A stretch of 64,000 nt of DNA, from the NCBI GenBank assembly GCA_003577165.1, contig QEUM01000013.1, positions 1 to 64,000 of the forward strand, in the 5' to 3' direction. Positions 43,334-56,925 of the stretch are shown here, piece by piece. A program made the position numbers and the translations under genes. This stretch comes from Armatimonadota bacterium (GTDB lineage Bacteria; Armatimonadota; Fimbriimonadia; Fimbriimonadales; ATM1). Positions within the stretch are counted from its first letter, which is position 1; each line of letters begins with the position of its first letter. The notes below the pieces were generated by a model. It was not told where the DNA came from. It was given only the letters and a program-made list of their open reading frames with translations, and ran no database searches.

Positions 43334-43356
43334 CGAATCGTAGGTCTTCCGCTTTC

Positions 43357-43440
43357 CTACGCCGGAATTATCCGGTTCAGGTTCGAAGGGTCTTCCGGCT
43401 GGTCCGGAACTCTCAGCCCGATGGGGCTCCCCTAGCGTAG
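43357..43440 (-). promoter_or_regulatory. TPP (THI-box) riboswitch
   Basis: On the minus strand the conserved parts appear in order: P1 CTACGC closing with GCGTAG, AGGGGAGCC, GGGCTGAGA, then ACCCTTCGAACCTGA and CCGGATAATTCCGGCGTAGG. This is a full thiamin pyrophosphate aptamer. It is oriented toward the prepilin-type gene at 42486-43277, not toward the lipoprotein gene on the other side. TPP aptamers normally control thiamin synthesis or transport; no such gene is visible here. Confidence 0.95.
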
Positions 43441-43506
43441 ACGGCCTTTTGGCCTTCTGACGCTTTAACATACTCCATTCCCGGGGATTCCGCTACAATC
43501 CGTGCC

Positions 43507-44130: not shown

Positions 44131-44261
44131 CGAGGCACTCGCACGGCTGCCGGCATGACGTTTGCAACGCATCCTCTTGGGAGTGGTTGGGTGCGTGCGA
44201 GATCGGCGTGGCAACCGGCCTGCCTTTACGTAAACTGCGCCAAGCAGCCTGTTCTGATCGT

Positions 44262-44320
44262 GGGGTTGCACGGGTGCACGGTGCACGCTCCGCGAGTGGG
44301 AAAGCGTGCAGGTTCGGGGT
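44262..44320. repeat. 59-nt direct repeat, copy 1
   Basis: It is nearly identical to 44389-44447 (one base differs). It contains nested short palindromes: GTGCAC twice, and GCACGCT paired with AGCGTGC. Part of the same GCACGGG-rich family as the REP-like elements further on. Confidence 0.85.
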
Positions 44321-44388
44321 GAGTCGAACGCTGTTTGCCCCAGGGACGAATCGAACCACAGCGACCTAAGGAGCTTCCGGATTCGAGG

Positions 44389-44447
44389 GGGGTTGCACGG
44401 GTGCACGGTGCACGCTCCGCGCGTGGGAAAGCGTGCAGGTTCGGGGT
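44389..44447. repeat. 59-nt direct repeat, copy 2
   Basis: Second copy, 127 bases downstream of the first in the same orientation, with a single difference (GCGAGT versus GCGCGT). Confidence 0.85.
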
Positions 44448-44610
44448 CCTGATTTGGTGCTCGGTGGCCTTGTGTTATGGGCATGCGTCGGGGATCCGTT
44501 TGGACATGTTCGGGACACACCTGTTAGGGACAGGAGGTCGGGGGAAGTCAATCGGGTTGCCTCGGTGAGGGCGCCGTGGGATGGATGGGGCGTGCAGGTT
44601 CGGCGAGGCC

Positions 44611-44647
44611 TTGCACGGGCGCGCTTCGCTTACCCGTGCCACCCGTG
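44611..44647. repeat. REP-like palindrome, outlying copy
   Basis: Core GCACGGG (44613-44619) paired with CCCGTGC (44633-44639), with the loop CGCGCTTCGCTTA, followed by CACCCG. The same core and loop recur at 54600 and 56213, about 10 kb away. Confidence 0.8.
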
Positions 44648-49014: not shown

Positions 49015-50796
49015 TTGGCCCGAACGGGCATACTAGGAAGCATCCCGCACGAAACATCGCTCATCTCCATCATCGCCGCTGGGCTCGGGCTTGCATTCGT
49101 GTTTGGTCTTTTGGCCGCTCGTTTCCGCCTCCCAGCGCTTCTCGGATACCTGATCGCCGGCGTAGTGATCGGGCCGTTTACTCCTGGATTCGTTGCGGAC
49201 GAGGACCTTGCCAAGCAACTGTCGGAGATCGGCGTCACGCTGCTCATGTTCGGGGTGGGCCTGCATTTTTCGATCAGGGACCTGTGGGCGGTTCGGAGGA
49301 TCGCCGTTCCTGGCGCTATCATTCAGATCGCGGCGGCGACCGTGATGGGCGCGACGTTGGGTCGACTATGGGGATGGGAGTGGGCCGCGAGTGTGATCTT
49401 TGGGTTATCGCTTTCGGTCGCCAGCACGGTCGTGATGCTGAGAGCGCTGGGCGAGCGTCGGCAGCTCGAGACGGTGAGCGGCAGCATAGCCGTGGGATGG
49501 CTGGTCGTTGAAGACATCGCGACGGTCGTGGCGCTGGTGGTTCTTCCCGCGCTCTCGGTTTCCTTGGGGGGCAATTCGAATTCAGGCGAGGGCGGCGGGA
49601 GCTTGGCTCTGGACATCGCTCTGACGCTGCTCAAAGTCAGCCTGTTCACGATCGTCATGATGTTTGTCGGAACGCGGGCGGTTCCCCGAGTGCTGGGGCG
49701 AGCGGCGCGGATGCGCTCTCGGGAGCTTTTCACGCTTGGAGTTGTGGCGATTGCGCTCGGGATCGCTTTCGGGGCTTCGGCGCTCTTCGGCGTGACGCCT
49801 GCGCTCGGGGCATTCTTCGCCGGCGTCGTGATCAGCGAGTCGGACCTTTCGCATCAGGCGGGGGCGGAGACGCTTCCTTTGCAAGAGGCGTTCTCGGTGC
49901 TCTTTTTCGTGTCGGTTGGGATGCTCTTCGACCCTCGTGTGCTCGTCGAGAATCCGCTCCACATTCTATTGGCCCTCTTTGTGGTGATGGTCGGTAAGTC
50001 CTTGGCTGCGGCGATCATCGTTCTTCTCTTCCGTTATCCGGTTTCGACTGCCCTGACGATCTCGGCCAGCCTTGCGCAGATCGGCGAGTTTTCGTTCATC
50101 CTGATTGGGCTTGCGAGCCATCTTGGACTTGTGCCCGTCGAGGCGAACAGTATTGTCGTGGGAGTCGCGATTCTCTCGATCTCGCTCAATCCCTTCATCT
50201 TCTCCTCAATCGGTCCCATTGACCGCTGGTTGCGCGCTCGTCCCAAGCTTTTGTCGCGCATCGAAAGGAAGCAGACACCGCTGGAGCCCACTCGAGAGGG
50301 TATCGCCCTTAGGGGACATGTTGTGATGGTTGGCTATGGCAGGGTTGGGGCCGCCATTGGGCGTGCCCTACAAATGAACAACCAGCCGTATGTGGTGGTG
50401 GACCAAGATCGGGAGGTGATTCTGCGGCTGCGGTCGGCGGGAGTTCCGGCGATTTTCGGCGACGCCGCCCGGCCCGGAATCTTGAAACAAACTGGGCTCG
50501 AACATGCTCGCCTTCTGATCGTGGCGACGCCGGACAAAGCTCAAGCGAAGGAGATTCTGGCCTACGGTTGGAAGGTGAATGAAGACATCGAGACGTGTGT
50601 TCGAACGCACAGCTTTTCCGAATCGAGGTTCTTCGAAGAGCTTGGGGTAAGCCGGGTCGTCATGGGCGAGGTGGAGCTTGCGCTGGAAATGAGCGAATAC
50701 GCGCTGGGATCCCTGGGCATCGACGAGTTTCGGGTGGCAGAGACAATTCCAGAACTCCGAGAAGAGCTCTTTCAGAGCGGCCATCAGCCTTCTTGA
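49015..50796 (+). CDS. CPA2 family cation:proton antiporter with TrkA-N domain (YbaL/KefB-like)
   Basis: The 593-residue protein begins at TTG. It has ~12 helices with [57 protein letters not shown] and [18 protein letters not shown], very close to the E. coli YbaL pattern. A C-terminal RCK/TrkA-N domain ([39 protein letters not shown]) binds NAD(H) and gates transport. Function: K+ or Na+/H+ exchange in the inner membrane. It is a housekeeping-type gene lying between two uvrA fragments. Confidence 0.9.
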
Positions 50797-50817
50797 GGCC
50801 ACTCGGACGCAATTCCA

Positions 50818-51245
50818 TGCCGTCGCCCTTGCACGCCTCGCACCGCCCGCCCTTGACGTTGAAGCTGAAGCGGCCGTTCTTATAGCCGCGCATCTTGGCG
50901 TCGGGAGTCATGGCGAAAAGCTCGCGGATCATGTCGAAGGTGCCGGTGTAGGTGGCGGGGTTGCTGCGCGGGGTGCGCCCGATGGGGGACTGGTCGATGT
51001 CGATGACCTTGTCGATGCCCTCGAAGCCCTCGAGCGATTCGTGCGCGGCCCAGGTGGTGCGGGTGCCGTAGACCTCGTACATGAGGCGGGGGAAGAGGGT
51101 GTCCTGGACGAGGGTGGATTTGCCGGAGCCGGAGACGCCTGTGACGCAGGTGAAGAGGCCCCGGGGAATGGCGACGTCGATCTTCCTCAGGTTGTTGCCT
51201 GAGGCGCCGCGAAGGACGATCCAGCCGTTGCCGTTCGAGGCGGAC
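50818..51245 (-). pseudogene. uvrA: uvrA fragment 2: second Walker A and zinc module
   Basis: About 140 residues from ATG 51245: [39 protein letters not shown] (Walker A), [19 protein letters not shown] and [19 protein letters not shown], after which UvrA similarity stops at about 50818. This equals the start of the second half of UvrA. The N-terminal half is absent, and the rest is at 46994-47416. A TATACT box lies just upstream (about 51255), so the stump may still be transcribed. Confidence 0.85.
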
Positions 51246-51320
51246 ATGTGGACAGAAGTATAGCTTAAGTCGCTGTGAGACAGAAAGTCCAGGCTCTGCC
51301 ACTTCATACATAATGCGGCT

Positions 51321-51731
51321 GTGCGCGGGACTGGACAAACTTTGCAGACAAAGCAAATCGGTGACCTGACGGTGACGTTCGACGCTGCGGCGACCACGCG
51401 GCTAGAATGGCGATCCTGCCAGTGTGACGGGTGCGAATTCTATCGGGCTCATGCTTCGGAGAGGTTGTCGCAAGGCTTGCAGGAGCTTCTATCTGAATTC
51501 GGGATCGCGCCCGACAATGCCGCGTACACGACGACCACCGATGAATTCCCCGAACGACGGTTGTTCCGATTCGAGGGCCACTTCGTCGTACAAGGTGAGT
51601 TGAGCGGCGGGCGGGTGGCCTCAGCGTGTGTGAAGGGTACGTCGGGTGGCACGGATGAGCGGCGGGTGGCGTCAGCATGTGTGAAGGTTTCGTCGGGTGG
51701 CACGGATGAGCGACCCACTCGCTGCAGTTGA
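51321..51731 (+). CDS. Orphan protein whose tail is built from REP repeats
   Basis: The 136-residue protein starts at GTG. Residues 1-93 form a small domain with [13 protein letters not shown] and [15 protein letters not shown]; no family is recognised. Residues ~94-136 are two near-identical repeats ([17 protein letters not shown] and [17 protein letters not shown]) encoded by the inverted REP copies at 51602-51712. The original C-terminus was probably replaced when the repeats arrived. It lies immediately upstream of the RAYT gene, same strand. Confidence 0.55.
51602..51712. repeat. Two inverted REP-like units upstream of RAYT
   Basis: Two direct units of about 51-54 bases, each ending CGGGTGGCACGGATGAGCG (51643-51661 and 51694-51712). 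That end is the reverse complement of the REP tail CGCTTACCCGTGCCACCCG found downstream of RAYT, allowing two differences. The transposase gene is thus bracketed by repeats in opposite orientations. Confidence 0.75.
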
Positions 51732-51804
51732 CGGCTAATGCCGCGTCGATCGTCCGCGGCTCTCAGACTAGTCGGACTCGCGACGGCAAGGGTACGCACG
51801 CGCC

Positions 51805-52383
51805 ATGGAGTTGCGAAAGCGAAGGCAGACGTTCAACGAGCCCGGCCACGCTCATGAACTCACCTTCTCCTGCTATCGGAGGCTTCCACTCCTGGCAACA
51901 ACATGTGCGAAAGAAACCTTCTTGAAAGCCCTCGACGAAGCTCGCAAGCGACTGCAATTCGAAGTATGGGCATACGTCGTCATGCGCGAACACGTGCATC
52001 TGCTCATTCATCCCATCCGAAAGGAGCATCGAATCGCGCAGAAACTAATGGCAATCGAGTCTTCGTTTGCTAAACAGTTGTTGACTGAGTTGCGCTCCCG
52101 CGACTCAGAGATGCTAAAGAAGTTGGTAGTCCGGAGTCGCGACGGAAGGCCGGCGTATCGCGTCTGGCAGGCGGGAGGCGGATACGACCGCAACCTGTTT
52201 TCTCCAAAGGCCATCCACGCGTGCATCAACTACATCCACGCGAATCGCGTCCGGTCGGGGCTCTGCGAGTCAGAACTGGATTGGCCGTGGTCGAGCGCGA
52301 GGGCCTACGCGGGCTTGGAGAGCGCCTTGAGACTTGATCCTTGTGAGGTTGTGTTGATGGAATCGGCTCGCAGGCGCGCATGA
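51805..52383 (+). CDS. REP-associated tyrosine transposase (RAYT, Y1 HUH type)
   Basis: The 192-residue protein has the Y1 transposase fold: HELTFSCYRRLPLL at the start, then the HUH metal motif in YVVMREHVHLLIHP (His-Val-His), a helix with LMAIESSFAKQLL, WQAGGGYDRNLFSP, and CINYIHANRVRSGL-WPWSSARAYAG at the end, the wording of RAYT proteins. RAYTs nick single-stranded REP hairpins and spread them. It is flanked by REP-like repeats on both sides. The attacking Tyr could be in YDRNLF or YIHANR; not decided. Confidence 0.92.
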   Translation: MELRKRRQTFNEPGHAHELTFSCYRRLPLLATTCAKETFLKALDEARKRLQFEVWAYVVMREHVHLLIHPIRKEHRIAQKLMAIESSFAKQLLTELRSRDSEMLKKLVVRSRDGRPAYRVWQAGGGYDRNLFSPKAIHACINYIHANRVRSGLCESELDWPWSSARAYAGLESALRLDPCEVVLMESARRRA

Positions 52384-52485
52384 AGCACGGACGAGCGGTA
52401 TGACATCTCGCCTTACACGAACACCGCGGGCCGCTCAACCGTGCCACCCGATTTTTGGGTTCAGACTTCATCCCGGCCACCCGCC

Positions 52486-52560
52486 GACAGCGAGGCGGCT
52501 CAGTGCACGCTCTGGAGAGACTACAATGCCTGTGCACGGGCGCGCTTCGCCCACCCGTCG
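52486..52560. repeat. REP-like repeat, copy R1
   Basis: Begins GACAGCGAGGCGGCTCAG, continues CTGGAGAGACTACAATGCCTG and TGCACGGGCGCGCTTCGC, ending CCCACCCGTCG (arm slightly changed). Shortly before it, at 52441-52450, a loose GTGCCACCCGA end is found. It lies between RAYT and the next orphan gene. Confidence 0.85.
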
Positions 52561-52672
52561 TCGGCCTGCCTCGATGGACGACATCGTATGCATCGGATGA
52601 CGAGCGTAGGATCGAAATGTAGGGGTCGGCAGCGGGGGGTAACGCGTTCGACGCAAAACGCAGTAATGGAAC

Positions 52673-53113
52673 ATGGCGAGTGACGGGCTGAGGGCGACGA
52701 TCTACGCGATGTTGGCTGTCGGCGCGGCCTTCGGCACGGCAGTGCTGATCGGGGGAACGCTCAACTGCATCGAATTGCGGGAAGTCCAGCATCGGGTGGC
52801 CAGGAACGAATGCATATTGGCCGTAGGCAACGCGTTTGCGGCTTACATCGAGCATGCAAACGGCGGACGAGTCGAGGAGGTCTCCATCTGGAGCACAGAG
52901 ATGCGAAAGTACATTGAGGCCCAATACGGCGGAGACGGATGCCCACGTCTGCTCGAGGGGGAACGTATCGCGTTCAGAGTTCCAAACGAAATCATCGGCA
53001 AGAAGCTGAGCGACCTCCCGGCCGAGCAGACGCTTCTTGAAATTACCGGTAGTCGCGCTTGGAGTGCGTTTACTGTCCAACGTACTCTCGTCTCACGACG
53101 TCGCGACCCATAG
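52673..53113 (+). CDS. Orphan membrane-anchored protein, cassette 1
   Basis: The 146-residue protein has an N-terminal helix (TIYAMLAVGAAFGTAVLIGG) and a soluble part with ELREVQHRVARNECILAVGN and a C-terminal LEITGSRAWSAFTVQRTLV. No family recognised. It follows REP copy R1 on the same strand and is one of a series of small unrelated genes. Confidence 0.5.
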   Translation: MASDGLRATIYAMLAVGAAFGTAVLIGGTLNCIELREVQHRVARNECILAVGNAFAAYIEHANGGRVEEVSIWSTEMRKYIEAQYGGDGCPRLLEGERIAFRVPNEIIGKKLSDLPAEQTLLEITGSRAWSAFTVQRTLVSRRRDP

Positions 53114-53159
53114 CGTGACCGATCGAGCTGCGCCGCGTGAGGTAAGTAAGTACTGAGCC

Positions 53160-53813
53160 GTGTGGATGCGTGTAATCGCCCAGCCCTATCAACACCAAGA
53201 CGCCGTCATCGAAGCGGACACAGAAGCCCTTTGCGCGCTTGCCGCCGCGCTTCGCTCTGCACGAACTGTGAGAACCAGCCACTGTGGCCCATTCGATAGC
53301 GATGAGCGGAGATTCGAAGTGAGCATTCTCGTTGACAACTCGCTCATCAATTCGCGCCGATGGAGTCGGGCGATACTTCCCGACACCGATCCGGATGAAG
53401 CATCGGAGCGAGCCGAGACGCGTTCGCTCGCACCCCACGAGCACGCGCGCATGGTGCTCGCTGGCGAAGGTGCAGGCACTCCGCTAACAGTTGGCGGCGT
53501 GTTCTCGCTTCTCTCCTTCGTCGGCATCGCCCGCGGGTTCAACCTGAACCTGCACGGGCCCGGTCGGGACGATGGCGTTGCCTGGATCGTCACGAACGAC
53601 CCGGGGTGTCAGGAGTTAGTGCGGACCGTGGTGCGAGCTGTGGAAGGGGGGATGGCGAAGTCCTGCTTCGCATCAGGGGAGCGGTCGCCCGCCTGGATGT
53701 TCGTCGAGGATTCCCGGACGAAAGCCGAGTACAGGTTCCTTGCTTGGATTCCAGAGAAAGGTGAAGTCGTGGAAGTGCGGAACTTGTGGCGTCCCGATCG
53801 GCTGGCCCCGTGA
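53160..53813 (+). CDS. Orphan soluble protein, cassette 2
   Basis: The 217-residue protein (GTG 53160, or ATG 53166) has no signal peptide or helix. Residues 1-100 hold a possible small alpha/beta domain (FEVSILVDNSLINSRRWSRA). The C-terminal part is LNLHGPGRDDGVAWIVTNDP and KAEYRFLAWIPEKGEVVEVRN. No family recognised. It begins 47 bases after the previous gene, and no REP copy separates them, so they may form a two-gene cassette. Confidence 0.5.
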   Translation: MWMRVIAQPYQHQDAVIEADTEALCALAAALRSARTVRTSHCGPFDSDERRFEVSILVDNSLINSRRWSRAILPDTDPDEASERAETRSLAPHEHARMVLAGEGAGTPLTVGGVFSLLSFVGIARGFNLNLHGPGRDDGVAWIVTNDPGCQELVRTVVRAVEGGMAKSCFASGERSPAWMFVEDSRTKAEYRFLAWIPEKGEVVEVRNLWRPDRLAP

Positions 53814-53875
53814 CGACAGGCGCATTTTTCCTTTTACGCTTGCGCGGAACATTCGATGCCTGCCGAGCGACACCA

Positions 53876-53901
53876 TCCACGGCGGGCCGTGGAGGGATAA
53901 G
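53876..53901. repeat. Short hairpin followed by GGGATAA, copy 2
   Basis: TCCACGGC-GG-GCCGTGGA (perfect 8-bp stem) then GGGATAA. It resembles 44656-44680. It sits 60 bases after the previous gene and could act as a terminator-like or mobile palindrome. Confidence 0.5.
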
Positions 53902-54038
53902 GGGAGAAAAGGTGGCATGGCAGAGGACATAATCCCTCTCACTCTCAGGCAGGTGAACGGCACGCCGATGACTCGAATCGCGGACCACGGTCACGAGATG
54001 CGGGGGCAGTCTGTTTGGCTCGGAGGGGCGACGCTCCG

Positions 54039-54491
54039 ATGATTTGGCGATCCGCCCTACTCGGGGCGCTGTGCGGCTTCTCGACCTCTCTTGTCATCTA
54101 CGACGGGCCGACTCTCTACTATCAGGGCCTCGGATTTGGAGTTGACTGGTCGTACGAAACCGCGCTCTCCGTTTCGAATCGCGCGGCCATCGTTACAGTG
54201 CTCCTCATCTTCCTGGGCTGTGCCCGGGCAGGGAGGCCGAGGCGGGACTTCGTCGTTGCGAGCGCTCTCGCAAATACCGTGACGGTTGCGTTCGGAGAGT
54301 CCGTAGGGAAAGACGTCGAGGACTTCCCGCCTCGAATTGATGCCTTGGTGGCTGGGTTCATCGGCTATGTGCCGATATCGCTCGTGATTTTTGGTCTTGT
54401 GTTTCTCCTCGCGAACGGCCTCACCTTACTGGGCAGAGCGATTTGGAAGCCGTCGCCGCCGATGGAGGCAGAGGTGGACGAACGTTTGTGA
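54039..54491 (+). CDS. Orphan membrane protein, cassette 3
   Basis: The 150-residue protein from ATG 54039 has GGAGGGG upstream. It has about four hydrophobic helices (SALLGALCGFSTSLVIY, AAIVTVLLIFLGCARA, VASALANTVTVAFG, VPISLVIFGLVFLLANGLTLL) and a short acidic end (EAEVDERL). No family recognised. Its last codons are part of the long repeat shared with 56090-56213. Confidence 0.6.
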   Translation: MIWRSALLGALCGFSTSLVIYDGPTLYYQGLGFGVDWSYETALSVSNRAAIVTVLLIFLGCARAGRPRRDFVVASALANTVTVAFGESVGKDVEDFPPRIDALVAGFIGYVPISLVIFGLVFLLANGLTLLGRAIWKPSPPMEAEVDERL

Positions 54492-54600
54492 GGTCATCCA
54501 TTCCTGTGGAGTACTCCGACAGCGAGGCGGCTCAGTGCAGGTGCTCAAAAGGCTGCAATGCCAGTGCACGGGCGCGCTGCGCTTACCCGTGCCACCCGAT
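54477..54600. repeat. REP-like repeat, long copy R2 (124 bp)
   Basis: It matches 56090-56213 over 124 bases with no length difference. The first ~15 bases are the end of the preceding gene (GACGAACGTTTGTGAGG), then GGTCATCCATTCCTGTGGAG, GACAGCGAGGCGGCTCAG, CTCAAAAGGCTGCAATGCCAG-type middle, and the hairpin GCACGGG...CCCGTGC followed by CACCCGA. Confidence 0.9.
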
Positions 54601-54728
54601 GGCACATCACAAAGAAGCGGGCCAAGCTTTCGCCGAATATTGAGGCCATGGTACGAACAGACCCCGTGTTGCGGTAAAGGAACGTTGAGGCTGAGTGAAT
54701 GCGCTGCGATAGTTTCAAATTCCCTACA

Positions 54729-55361
54729 ATGCGTCGGCTCGCAAAGCCGCTAGCCATTCTCGTCGCGCCAGTCGTCGCGGTGCTCTCTTGTAAAGCGACC
54801 GAACCGTCTGCGTCGCCGCCACGGCCGCCAGGAATGTGGCTTACCACGGAGGACTATCGTTGTCAAATCCGCATGCCGACTCAGGGATGGTCGATGCAGT
54901 ACACGCGCAGGCCGACAGCCGGTGGGCTTCGGCTTCGCTACCAGCTCATACTCGCAACGAACCCCGGAGTCCAAATCATCCTCGACAGTCTTCCCTGGCC
55001 CCGCGAGCGCGCGGTGGACAAATGGGTGGAATCGCTGACGAGCGGCGCGTCCGTCCCTTATCATCCCAGGGAGGTCAGAGGGCCGAGGCAGATTCGATTT
55101 TTCGACAAGGAGTGCACGTTCGTCGCTTGGCTCGCGGATACGTCGGCGGGCCCTGTCACGGGCTTCTCCAGGGCGTTCCGGATACCGGACCGCCTGATCG
55201 CGATGCACGTCATCATCCCAGTATTTGCCGCAGACGAGGAGCAGGATGCTGTTTTCAACGTTGCTTCGACGCTACGAGTCGGAGATGAGGTCCGCCGCGT
55301 CACCGACCCCGGGGCCATTCGAATCATGCCGAATCCCGTACCTCCTGATGATGGCGAGTAG
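54729..55361 (+). CDS. Orphan lipoprotein, cassette 4
   Basis: The 210-residue product (ATG 54729) has a lipoprotein signal MRRLAKPLAILVAPVVAVLSC with Cys as the last residue. A Pro-rich linker follows, then a beta domain with YRCQIRMPTQGWSMQYTRRP, WPRERAVDKWVESL and DTSAGPVTGFSRAFRIPDR. The phrase V...A...Q.GW is reminiscent of small stress-type or PsbP/DUF1795-like proteins, but identity is unproven. REP copy R2 precedes it. Confidence 0.6.
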   Translation: MRRLAKPLAILVAPVVAVLSCKATEPSASPPRPPGMWLTTEDYRCQIRMPTQGWSMQYTRRPTAGGLRLRYQLILATNPGVQIILDSLPWPRERAVDKWVESLTSGASVPYHPREVRGPRQIRFFDKECTFVAWLADTSAGPVTGFSRAFRIPDRLIAMHVIIPVFAADEEQDAVFNVASTLRVGDEVRRVTDPGAIRIMPNPVPPDDGE

Positions 55362-55400
55362 GTCGTTTAGTTCTGGTACGCCCATGCTTGTTTGCCGGCT

Positions 55401-55463
55401 CAGCGAGACGGCTCAGCGCAGGTGCTCAAAAGGCTGCAATGCCAGTGCACGGGCGCGCTTCGT
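55401..55463. repeat. REP-like repeat, truncated copy R3
   Basis: Begins CAGCGAGACGGCTCAG, has the R2-type middle (CTCAAAAGGCTGCAATGCCA) and GCACGGGCGCGCTTCG, then stops before the second hairpin arm. It lies between cassettes 4 and 5. Confidence 0.85.
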
Positions 55464-55532
55464 CGCGAAAGCGTCACGCCTGCGTGGGATAGAATCAACC
55501 ACCCACCCGCGGAGCTTGGGTGCCATTGTGCG

Positions 55533-56009
55533 ATGAGCGGCTTTGGAAGATATCTGAGACGCTTCGTTCTCTCAGATCTCGTTCTGCTCGCGATCGGCAC
55601 TGTCGCATACTCGTTGCCGTGCTTAGCGTTCGTTCTCTCTCCTGACTGGACTTACGGGTGGCTACCCGTGCCCGACTGGGCTCCTCACGACAAGCAAAGC
55701 ATAGCGGTCATTTTGTGGATAGTCGTTGCGACCATATTCCTATGGTGGTGGAGGAGAGGAAAGACATTGGTGTGGACGACCATTGTCGCGGCGAGTTGGC
55801 TGCTCTCGGCGATTCCCGATGCCTATGAAACACACTTTGGGCAAAGCGATGACTTCCTTGATTATCCGACGCTGCCTGAAAAGCTCTGGCTCTTTTTCGC
55901 CTTTCGTCTGGAAGTCCTCGTATGGTGTGTGCTCATTGGGCTCGTTATCGCGGCGATCGTCCACAACCTCCGTCCAACGCCCAAGGACCGTGCAGAGGGA
56001 TCGAGTTGA
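55533..56009 (+). CDS. Orphan membrane protein, cassette 5
   Basis: The 158-residue protein (ATG 55533; the frame upstream is repeat sequence) has about four helices: LVLLAIGTVAYSLPCLAFVL, SIAVILWIVVATIFLWWW, WTTIVAASWLLSAIP and LEVLVWCVLIGLVIAAIV. No family recognised. The remaining ~80 bases to the next repeat end in an open frame ...IDECL, possibly the surviving tail of a lost gene. Confidence 0.6.
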   Translation: MSGFGRYLRRFVLSDLVLLAIGTVAYSLPCLAFVLSPDWTYGWLPVPDWAPHDKQSIAVILWIVVATIFLWWWRRGKTLVWTTIVAASWLLSAIPDAYETHFGQSDDFLDYPTLPEKLWLFFAFRLEVLVWCVLIGLVIAAIVHNLRPTPKDRAEGSS

Positions 56010-56089
56010 GGGTCCATGAATGGCAATCAGCTGTTCTCCCAACGTGGGTGGTACGAAAGCGAGCGCTCATCCCGAAGGTGCAGAGGATT

Positions 56090-56213
56090 GACGAATGTCT
56101 GTGAGGTCATCCACTCCTCTGGAGTATTCCCGCAGCGAGGCGGCTCAGTGCACGGGCTGGAGAGACTACAATGCCTGTGCACGGGCGCGCTTCGCTTACC
56201 CGTGCCACCCGAG
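56090..56213. repeat. REP-like repeat, long copy R4 (124 bp)
   Basis: It matches 54477-54600 end to end, but its middle is R1-type (CTGGAGAGACTACAATGCCTG). The hairpin is intact (GCACGGG...CCCGTGC, CACCCGA). Its left end resembles the 3' end of cassette 3, though no full gene precedes it here. The next gene starts 4 bases later. Confidence 0.9.
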
Positions 56214-56216
56214 GCC

Positions 56217-56696
56217 ATGTCCAGACTAATCAAATATTCTCTCTACTGCTTGCTGACTATCTCTGCCCTAGCATCCATCAACGGATGCGCGAGCACACAC
56301 GACGGGAAGGTGTCGAGCACGAGTAGCCCCAGCCCGGAGCAGATTGACAATGAGGCAGCTGTTGCAATGGTCATCAGAGATGAACTGGATTCAGCTGGGC
56401 AGTTGCATAAGATACCAAATAGAATTGTCGTTGCCGATCCAATCCCAGCGCCGTTGAACGCCGAGAAGTTTCGGTCCTCTCTTAGGTCCATGCTCCAGCC
56501 AAAGGGGTATGAACTTCTTGCTGCGGCGGAGGACGAGCCTCTGCCCCGTGTTGTACTGCGACTGGACGCGCTTCGGCTGAATGGCCGAAATCCCAAGCTT
56601 TCGCTTTCCGTCCAGTGGGGCCCCCGCGCCGGTTACTCTGTTGAATTGCAGAAGACCGAAGCAGGAGTGGTCCGCAAAGTAGTCAGCCGACTCTAA
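56217..56696 (+). CDS. Orphan lipoprotein, cassette 6
   Basis: The 159-residue product (ATG 56217) has a lipoprotein signal [20 protein letters not shown] ending before Cys in SINGC. The mature part is a mixed domain with [39 protein letters not shown] and [20 protein letters not shown]. No family recognised. Start is 4 bases after REP copy R4, so the repeat likely supplies its 5' leader. Last gene of the cassette-like run. Confidence 0.6.
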
Positions 56697-56702
56697 CGCA
56701 AT

Positions 56703-56925
56703 CCTTGCACGGCACGTAGACGTCCGGCAGGAAGTGTCCCGATCATCGGGACCGTCGCCCTTGCACGCCTCGCACCGCCCGCCCTTGACGTTGAAGCTGA
56801 AGCGGCCGTACTTCTAGCCGCGCATCTCGGCGTCGGAGGTTGTCTCCCTCCCCAACCCCTCCCTCGTATTCCGCTCGCGCGAAAAACAAGGGCGCGGCTG
56901 CTCGCGGATCATGTCGAGGAAGCGC
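56703..56925 (-). pseudogene. uvrA: uvrA fragment 3: degraded zinc module
   Basis: On the minus strand it reads [20 protein letters not shown] again, with a stop codon in place of a Tyr/Asn (MRG then TAG), and a trace of the next motif ([10 protein letters not shown]). It differs from fragment 2 at several bases and contains a ~60-base insert with CCCTCCCC and CGCGCG. A second, older decayed copy of uvrA. It lies between the last cassette and tRNA-Ile2. Confidence 0.8.

Follow-up and report, generated by a model that had tools for sequence, protein, structure and literature searches.

Does a tyrosine transposase gene found among hairpin-forming repeats in an Armatimonadota bacterium belong to these repeats, and could both of them move? 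The stretch of DNA analysed, hereafter the window, comprises positions 1 to 64,000 of contig QEUM01000013.1 (assembly GCA_003577165.1), and the gene at 51805-52383, hereafter RAYT1, encodes a REP-associated tyrosine transposase (RAYT or TnpA-REP), REP standing for repetitive extragenic palindrome. The preferred reading, with a probability of roughly three in four, is that the window holds a RAYT element together with part of the REP family of its genome, and that REPs, and a RAYT with REP ends, would spread as mobile elements. A RAYT with a cognate REP family had been proposed by an earlier sequence-only reading of this DNA, and the protein family, structure, flanking anatomy and copy count all agree with that proposal.

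The Y1/HUH transposase gene announced by that reading is borne out by two models, as RAYT1 exceeds the cut-offs of the curated NCBIfam RAYT model NF047646 (84.8 bits, cut-off 80) and of Pfam Y1_Tnp (24.4 bits, cut-off 23), with no match to the IS200 transposase model. Its motifs comprise an HUH formed by H63-V64-H65, W121-Q122, GGGYDRN at 124-130 and Y143 as the predicted catalytic tyrosine. Residues H63, H65, W121 and Y143 are invariant in all 86 RAYT loci aligned overall; a scan of named genomes, in which 506 stretches encoded relatives, contributed its best 80. These best 80 of 506 come mostly from Planctomycetota, in addition to Armatimonadota, Zixibacteria and a few Desulfobacterales-type records, and for the named relatives matching genomes of the window's family or order, the recorded taxa are Armatimonadetes, Fimbriimonadales and Chthonomonadaceae, in agreement with the Armatimonadota lineage suspected before. 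Regarding the structure, an AlphaFold2 model was obtained from 56 sequences, picked among sequences uninterrupted by stop codons, as are 75 of the 80 named loci, with a pLDDT of 93.9. Its top match in the PDB is 4er8, the E. coli TnpA-REP with a REP hairpin (Z 17.4, root-mean-square deviation 1.9, 143 residues), followed by IS608 (Z 12.2), and a PDB search with a profile from nine RAYTs also led to 4er8.

Around this gene, the sequence TGCACGGGCGCGCTTCGC, with at most three mismatches, is found five times in the window against 0.28 expected, a number reached in none of 100 shuffles. Four copies start downstream at 52488, 54520, 55401 and 56133 (R1 to R4), and the outlying copy already noticed at 44.6 kb starts at 44612 and proves to be the right end of a 387-bp composite repeat. 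The four downstream copies are thus real, but not all of them are hairpins: only R2, R4 and the 44.6-kb copy retain a complete hairpin including the foot, a tetranucleotide at its 5' side (fold z -1.7 to -2.3), while in R1 and R3 the half bearing the foot is gone and folding is no better than in shuffles. Concerning the two orientations that had been described, the second one exists, but it is limited to the left end of the RAYT1 element, R1-R4 all pointing the same way. These four copies are embedded in a longer repeat of 71-128 bp, found on the window's contig only. Both ends of the 387-bp composite repeat are inverted versions of GGGTKGCACGGGT; copies of the composite lie on C10, C20 and C22 (three), and right-hand parts of it on C16 and C18. 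A second palindrome family, TGCACGCT...AGCGTGCA, was observed at 44259-44320 and 44389-44447, with paired copies 127 bp apart, and also on C4, C6, C8, C12 and at C14:134354, the right end differing in four.

The upstream repeats had been called inverted: GGGTGGCACGG does recur there, inverted relative to the right end at 52421-52451, but the two 51-bp copies carrying it are direct repeats of each other. The hairpin at the right end of the element folds with a z of -1.54, 16 of 200 shuffles being equally stable. The limits of the element come from a relic on contig C3 of the same genome, in which both ends of RAYT1 are kept and the middle of the gene is deleted, the left limit of homology lying at TTGRSCGGYGGGCGGGTGG and the right limit at CCACCCGMCG-ACAG. 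The coordinates are collected in Table 1. At the left end, an open reading frame (ORF) at 51321-51600, with no family match above cut-off, is apparently truncated by the element. On either side of the RAYT and repeat region, two 85-bp stretches (50820-50904 and 56752-56836) are 96% identical; by eye, we take them to be pieces of a UvrA-like gene interrupted at nearly the same point (ORF 50660-51397 on the minus strand), with weak P-loop matches only in Pfam.

Table 1. Features of the RAYT1 element and of the repeats in the window.
Feature	Position	Strand	Basis or remark
RAYT1 element, whole	51600..52490	+	bounds from internally deleted copy on contig C3
Left-end unit, copy 1, contains TCGGGTGGCACGG	51610..51660	+	direct repeat D7
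Left-end unit, copy 2	51661..51711	+	direct repeat D7, 92% alike
Left terminal inverted repeat CGGCGGGTGGC	51660..51670	+	11/11 complementary to 52476-52486
RAYT1, REP-associated tyrosine transposase, 192 amino acids	51805..52383	+	NF047646, Y1_Tnp, aligned columns, fold
Right-end hairpin of RAYT1 element, foot GTGG, stem CACGGTTGAGCGG / CCGCTCGTCCGTG	52384..52451	-	folding versus shuffles
Right terminal inverted repeat	52476..52486	-	11-bp perfect partner of 51660-51670
R1, first downstream copy, foot half lost	52488..52564	-	fold z -0.58
128-bp local repeat around R2	54477..54604	+	repeat search; 86% to 56090-56217
R2, complete REP, foot GTGG, within 54477-54604	54567..54595	-	repeat search and pattern count
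R3, third downstream copy, foot half lost	55401..55463	-	fold z +0.52
128-bp local repeat around R4	56090..56217	+	repeat search
R4, complete REP, foot GTGG, within 56090-56217	56180..56208	-	repeat search and pattern count
387-bp composite repeat, inverted ends GGGTTGCACGGGT / ACCCGTGCCACCC, right end = outlying REP	44259..44645		genome copies
Outlying complete REP, foot GTGG	44614..44642	-	pattern searches

The repeat family had been taken as local, with a genome-wide count proposed as the check. Instead, the family extends over the genome: a 29-base REP pattern with at most three mismatches is found 39 times in the window's genome (G000) and in none of the 112 other genomes of the order Fimbriimonadales, which formed the comparison set, the reversed control giving 0. 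A covariance model built from 39 units gave 50 matches in the same genome at E<=1 and 45 at E<=0.01. The copies are grouped in arrays with periods of 41 or 53 bp, several of them close to contig ends, so the true copy number may exceed this count. In 40 relatives, the same model gave one weak match only, on a contig of G001 where a RAYT fragment is present too; we take this result to mean that every RAYT has a repeat of its own.

A second gene, RAYT2, was found on contig C20, 53% identical to RAYT1, above the cut-off of NF047646 (80.5 bits, cut-off 80) and below that of the IS200 model (22.6 bits, cut-off 55). On its two sides lie inverted REPs that agree over 33 nt and are identical to the dispersed repeat, one of them starting about 10 bases past the stop codon. 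Compared with the canonical GT[AG]G foot, the window copies have GTGG and the majority of copies in the genome have GTGC; among the 35 REPs listed of the 39 counted, the foot is GTGC in 30, GTGG in three, GTCC in one and GTGT in one. All three GTGG REPs are on the window's contig, the home of RAYT1 with its GTGG ends, and RAYT2 has the foot GTGC; local duplication could alternatively account for the GTGG copies sharing the contig of RAYT1. As judged from these sequences, RAYT2 is the likelier working partner of the REPs. A third Y1 gene (L001 1480-1926, G000:C16, 148 amino acids) exceeds the cut-off of the IS200 model and is not a RAYT. Its motif YIRNQEEHH is close to the YIKNQKEHH of subclass 1.2 as published in the main text of PMC6006769.

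The alternation of small genes and repeats at 52.5-56.7 kb could also be taken for an integron-like cassette array with attC-like sites, considering that all the repeats share one orientation, that one follows most ORFs and that the ORFs have no family match. However, this repeat is also found in other arrays that have no genes between the units, and the consensus of the attC core, RYYYAAC/GTTRRRY, was not seen at the copies by eye, no integrase search having been made; this explanation was rejected as having almost no chance of being right. The six small ORFs at 52673-56696 gave no match in Pfam, NCBIfam or PHROGs, and several have by eye a signal-like or membrane-like start. A scan of the window for RNA families detected tRNAs and one thiamine pyrophosphate (TPP) riboswitch (43337-43443, minus strand, 71 bits), and nothing else.

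Beyond this genome, RAYTs above the cut-off are present in 55 of the 113 genomes of the order, and the anatomy of RAYT flanks recurs across species. An inverted match between the two flanks of a locus, above the control threshold, was obtained for 47 of 77 loci (three of the 80 were dropped for flanks shorter than 200 bp), whereas the controls reached it in 3 of 227 cases for mismatched pairs and in 0 of 133 for shifted positions. The most frequent 7-mer, when flanks are read inward, is GGGTGGC, in 74 of 172 flanks against 24 on the other strand, GGGTGCC being found in 57 against 14. Hairpins with a GTG foot occupy both flanks facing inward in 45 of 86 loci and facing outward in four, with a median of 1 over the 64 trinucleotides. 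By tetranucleotide, with a stem of at least eight pairs and one mismatch, GTGG is found at both flanks in 20 of these 86 loci (outward 2), which come mostly from Planctomycetota and Armatimonadota, GTGC in 20 (outward 2), GTAG in none and GTGS, where S is G or C, in 42. The stem sequences vary between loci, and the fourth foot base alternated between G and C with 14 changes on the tree, at least 7 of them forced, the 27 of 86 loci lacking a G or C call being left out of this analysis.

Insertion sites were compared in G025 and G027, two genomes of one genus, the window's own genome having no relative that close. These two have a different RAYT and a different flanking hairpin, in 22 and 15 copies respectively, with one copy of the hairpin in G064 and none in the other 110 genomes. 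Twenty stretches were fetched, a long shared block lay beside the site for some only, and three pairs of sites were aligned, showing one tandem duplication, one array difference and one diverged site. The comparison proposed by the sequence-only reading therefore revealed repeat turnover, the number of repeats at aligned sites differing through tandem duplication or turnover, but a clean empty site in none of the three pairs, which we count among the points against mobility. In the same genomes, long colinear blocks stop beside REP sites (L253/L257/L252 and L221/L256), which suggests rearrangement at the repeats.

The tandem duplication seen in this genus, the 41- and 53-bp arrays, which could arise by slippage or unequal exchange, and the intergenic position of all five window copies between listed ORFs would also suit host hairpins, such as terminators or stabilisers of mRNA ends, multiplied by ordinary duplication beside a RAYT present by coincidence. 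This view is improbable, as the repeat is absent in the 112 related genomes, inverted repeat pairs also flank RAYT2, and hairpins sharing a foot face inward at RAYT flanks far above the controls.

Besides the REPs, there are signs, read from sequence comparison, that in this order the RAYT itself moves, inferred from near-identical dispersed copies with shared ends and from the deleted relic on C3. G005 contains four such pairs, of RAYT copies or of fragments, with 92-98% identity; in the longest, the shared stretch covers 810 bp at 95%, with unrelated flanks on both sides and a left edge of homology at CGGCNGGGTGGC, similar in G003. The pair in G061 is identical over 712 bp, its left edge at GGTGGCCC being the foot of the hairpin. 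The alternative is that these RAYTs are domesticated, immobile and housekeeping-like, the near-identical copies resulting from segmental duplication or from assembly of mixed strains. It agrees with PMC8266576, which describes most RAYTs as single-copy genes and sees no evidence of mobility, with the pair in G003, which shares about 1.4 kb of flanking DNA beyond the RAYT as in a possible segmental duplication, and with G063, where no near-identical pair was found among 11 RAYT loci read. This alternative is unlikely but deserves weight; the 810-bp copies of G005, with unrelated flanks and a left edge much as in G003, and the C3 relic, with both ends and no middle, speak against it.

Several further observations weigh against the mobile RAYT and REP reading. 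G005 is fragmented into 180 contigs, and in G061 a locus end truncates the right edge of the pair. In a PDB search, RAYT1 as a single protein gave no match, and the hairpin at the left end of its element folds no better than shuffles (z 0.12). In the alignment of the window genome's own REPs covariation is weak, two-sided changes being reached in 220 of 500 shuffles, because the copies are too alike. In 44 of the 86 loci, no GTGS hairpin occupies both flanks. No RAYT residue tracks the fourth foot base, the best mutual information being 0.44 and the 95% level of shuffles 0.43; a switch of specificity by one residue was thus dropped, as no residue stands out. Finally, the column of the Y---NP motif is proline in 85 of 86 loci, and the sole exception is RAYT1, where R148 replaces it. 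Since this substitution is accompanied by two broken repeats among the four downstream copies, RAYT1 is judged to be worn, with its reading frame intact, and the description as probably active is not supported for the window's own RAYT.

Under the mobile-element reading, most likely the HUH/Tyr enzyme would bind a single-stranded hairpin with its four foot bases (GTGG here, GTGC for RAYT2 and most REPs), and these bases would guide the choice of the cleavage dinucleotide. Y143 would then cut, and the freed end would be joined elsewhere, so that REPs could spread as short non-autonomous elements, multiplied afterwards by duplicating in tandem; the RAYT gene of this lineage, with its REP-bearing ends, would itself act as such an element. 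Single-stranded cleavage, guide pairing, strand transfer and transposition of both REPs and RAYT are all inferred. According to the main text of PMC8266576, work on IS608 and Marinomonas describes the foot as a guide, GTAG leading to CT/CA, GTGG being cut at CC/CA and GTAC at GA/GT. By analogy with this scheme, the predicted cleavage dinucleotides are CC or CA for a GTGG foot and GC or GA for a GTGC foot. As a broader proposal, the RAYTs of Planctomycetota and Armatimonadota may include a large lineage with a GTGS guide, GTGC being as frequent as GTGG, that still moves itself as a discrete 0.7-0.9 kb element with hairpins at its ends, in contrast to the domesticated RAYTs known from earlier studies; it would be intermediate between IS200/IS605 and the domesticated REPtron, with a predicted cleavage site of CC/CA for GTGG and GC/GA for GTGC. 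This is advanced tentatively, at a little under even odds. From the GTGC foot follows a sharp prediction under the guide model, in which the foot determines where cleavage occurs. Moreover, the mode by which REPs spread is unsolved, and a lineage with near-identical RAYTs, a relic and matching hairpin ends would make the question testable.

The occurrence of RAYTs and REPs beyond gamma-proteobacteria, which had been supposed to mark the known limit, is not new. PMC3733652 and PMC6006769 report REPs in eight phyla, including Planctomycetes and Cyanobacteria, RAYT-type genes in many phyla, among them Planctomycetes, Cyanobacteria and Bacteroidetes, REPs with GTAG or GTGG feet, and RAYT-like genes bounded by terminal inverted repeats. 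What seems new, as far as can be read from sequences, is a GTGS foot in which GTGC, a tetranucleotide not covered by the GT[AG]G of the published definition, is common, together with the signs of a RAYT itself moving. GTGC is absent from the main texts of PMC6006769, PMC3733652, PMC2817692 and PMC8266576 (supplements not covered), and a literature search, not covering subscription papers, found none on a RAYT in Armatimonadetes or Armatimonadota or with GTGC, nor on transposases and palindromes in Fimbriimonas. The automatic search in PMC6006769, as described in its main text, demanded GTAG or GTGG; therefore GTGC hairpins, and with them many REP families, would be missed by such surveys.

Comparing with known systems, the REPtron (group 2 in E. 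coli, group 3 in Stenotrophomonas and Marinomonas; main texts of PMC8266576 and PMC2817692) shares the HUH/Tyr enzyme with the 4er8 fold, the inverted hairpins with a 5' tetranucleotide foot flanking the gene, the dispersed intergenic copies and a repeat family of its own for each RAYT. The present lineage differs from it in the GTGC or GTGG foot, GTAG being found in 0 of 86 loci, in the WQxGGGYDRN motif, in near-identical bounded RAYT copies and in a REP number limited to tens in each genome counted. The TIRtron, with its TIRYT gene (PMC3733652, main text), likewise places a RAYT-like gene within terminal inverted repeats found elsewhere in the genome; here the terminal repeat is CGGCGGGTGGC, GGGGWSAS is not present in the ends read, and the ends are joined to GTGS hairpins. 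As to the C-terminal helix-turn-helix domain of TIRYT, the Pfam scan of RAYT1 gives Y1_Tnp only (E<=0.001). The TnpA-Y1 subclasses 2.4 and 2.6 and class 3 (Quentin 2018, main text of PMC6006769) share the Y---NP motif, with P at that column in 85 of 86 loci here and R148 in RAYT1, the WQ motif and the occurrence in Planctomycetes and other phyla; the residue before HUH is E in 71 of 86 loci here and N or D in the table of that paper. The same text describes class 2 copies within one genome as poorly conserved and class 3 as resembling both insertion sequences and the REPtron. With IS200/IS605, finally, the lineage shares a single-domain HUH/Y1 transposase, hairpins at the ends and the model of a guide tetranucleotide, but it has Y---NP instead of Y---Q, and both RAYT1 and RAYT2 are below the IS200 cut-off.

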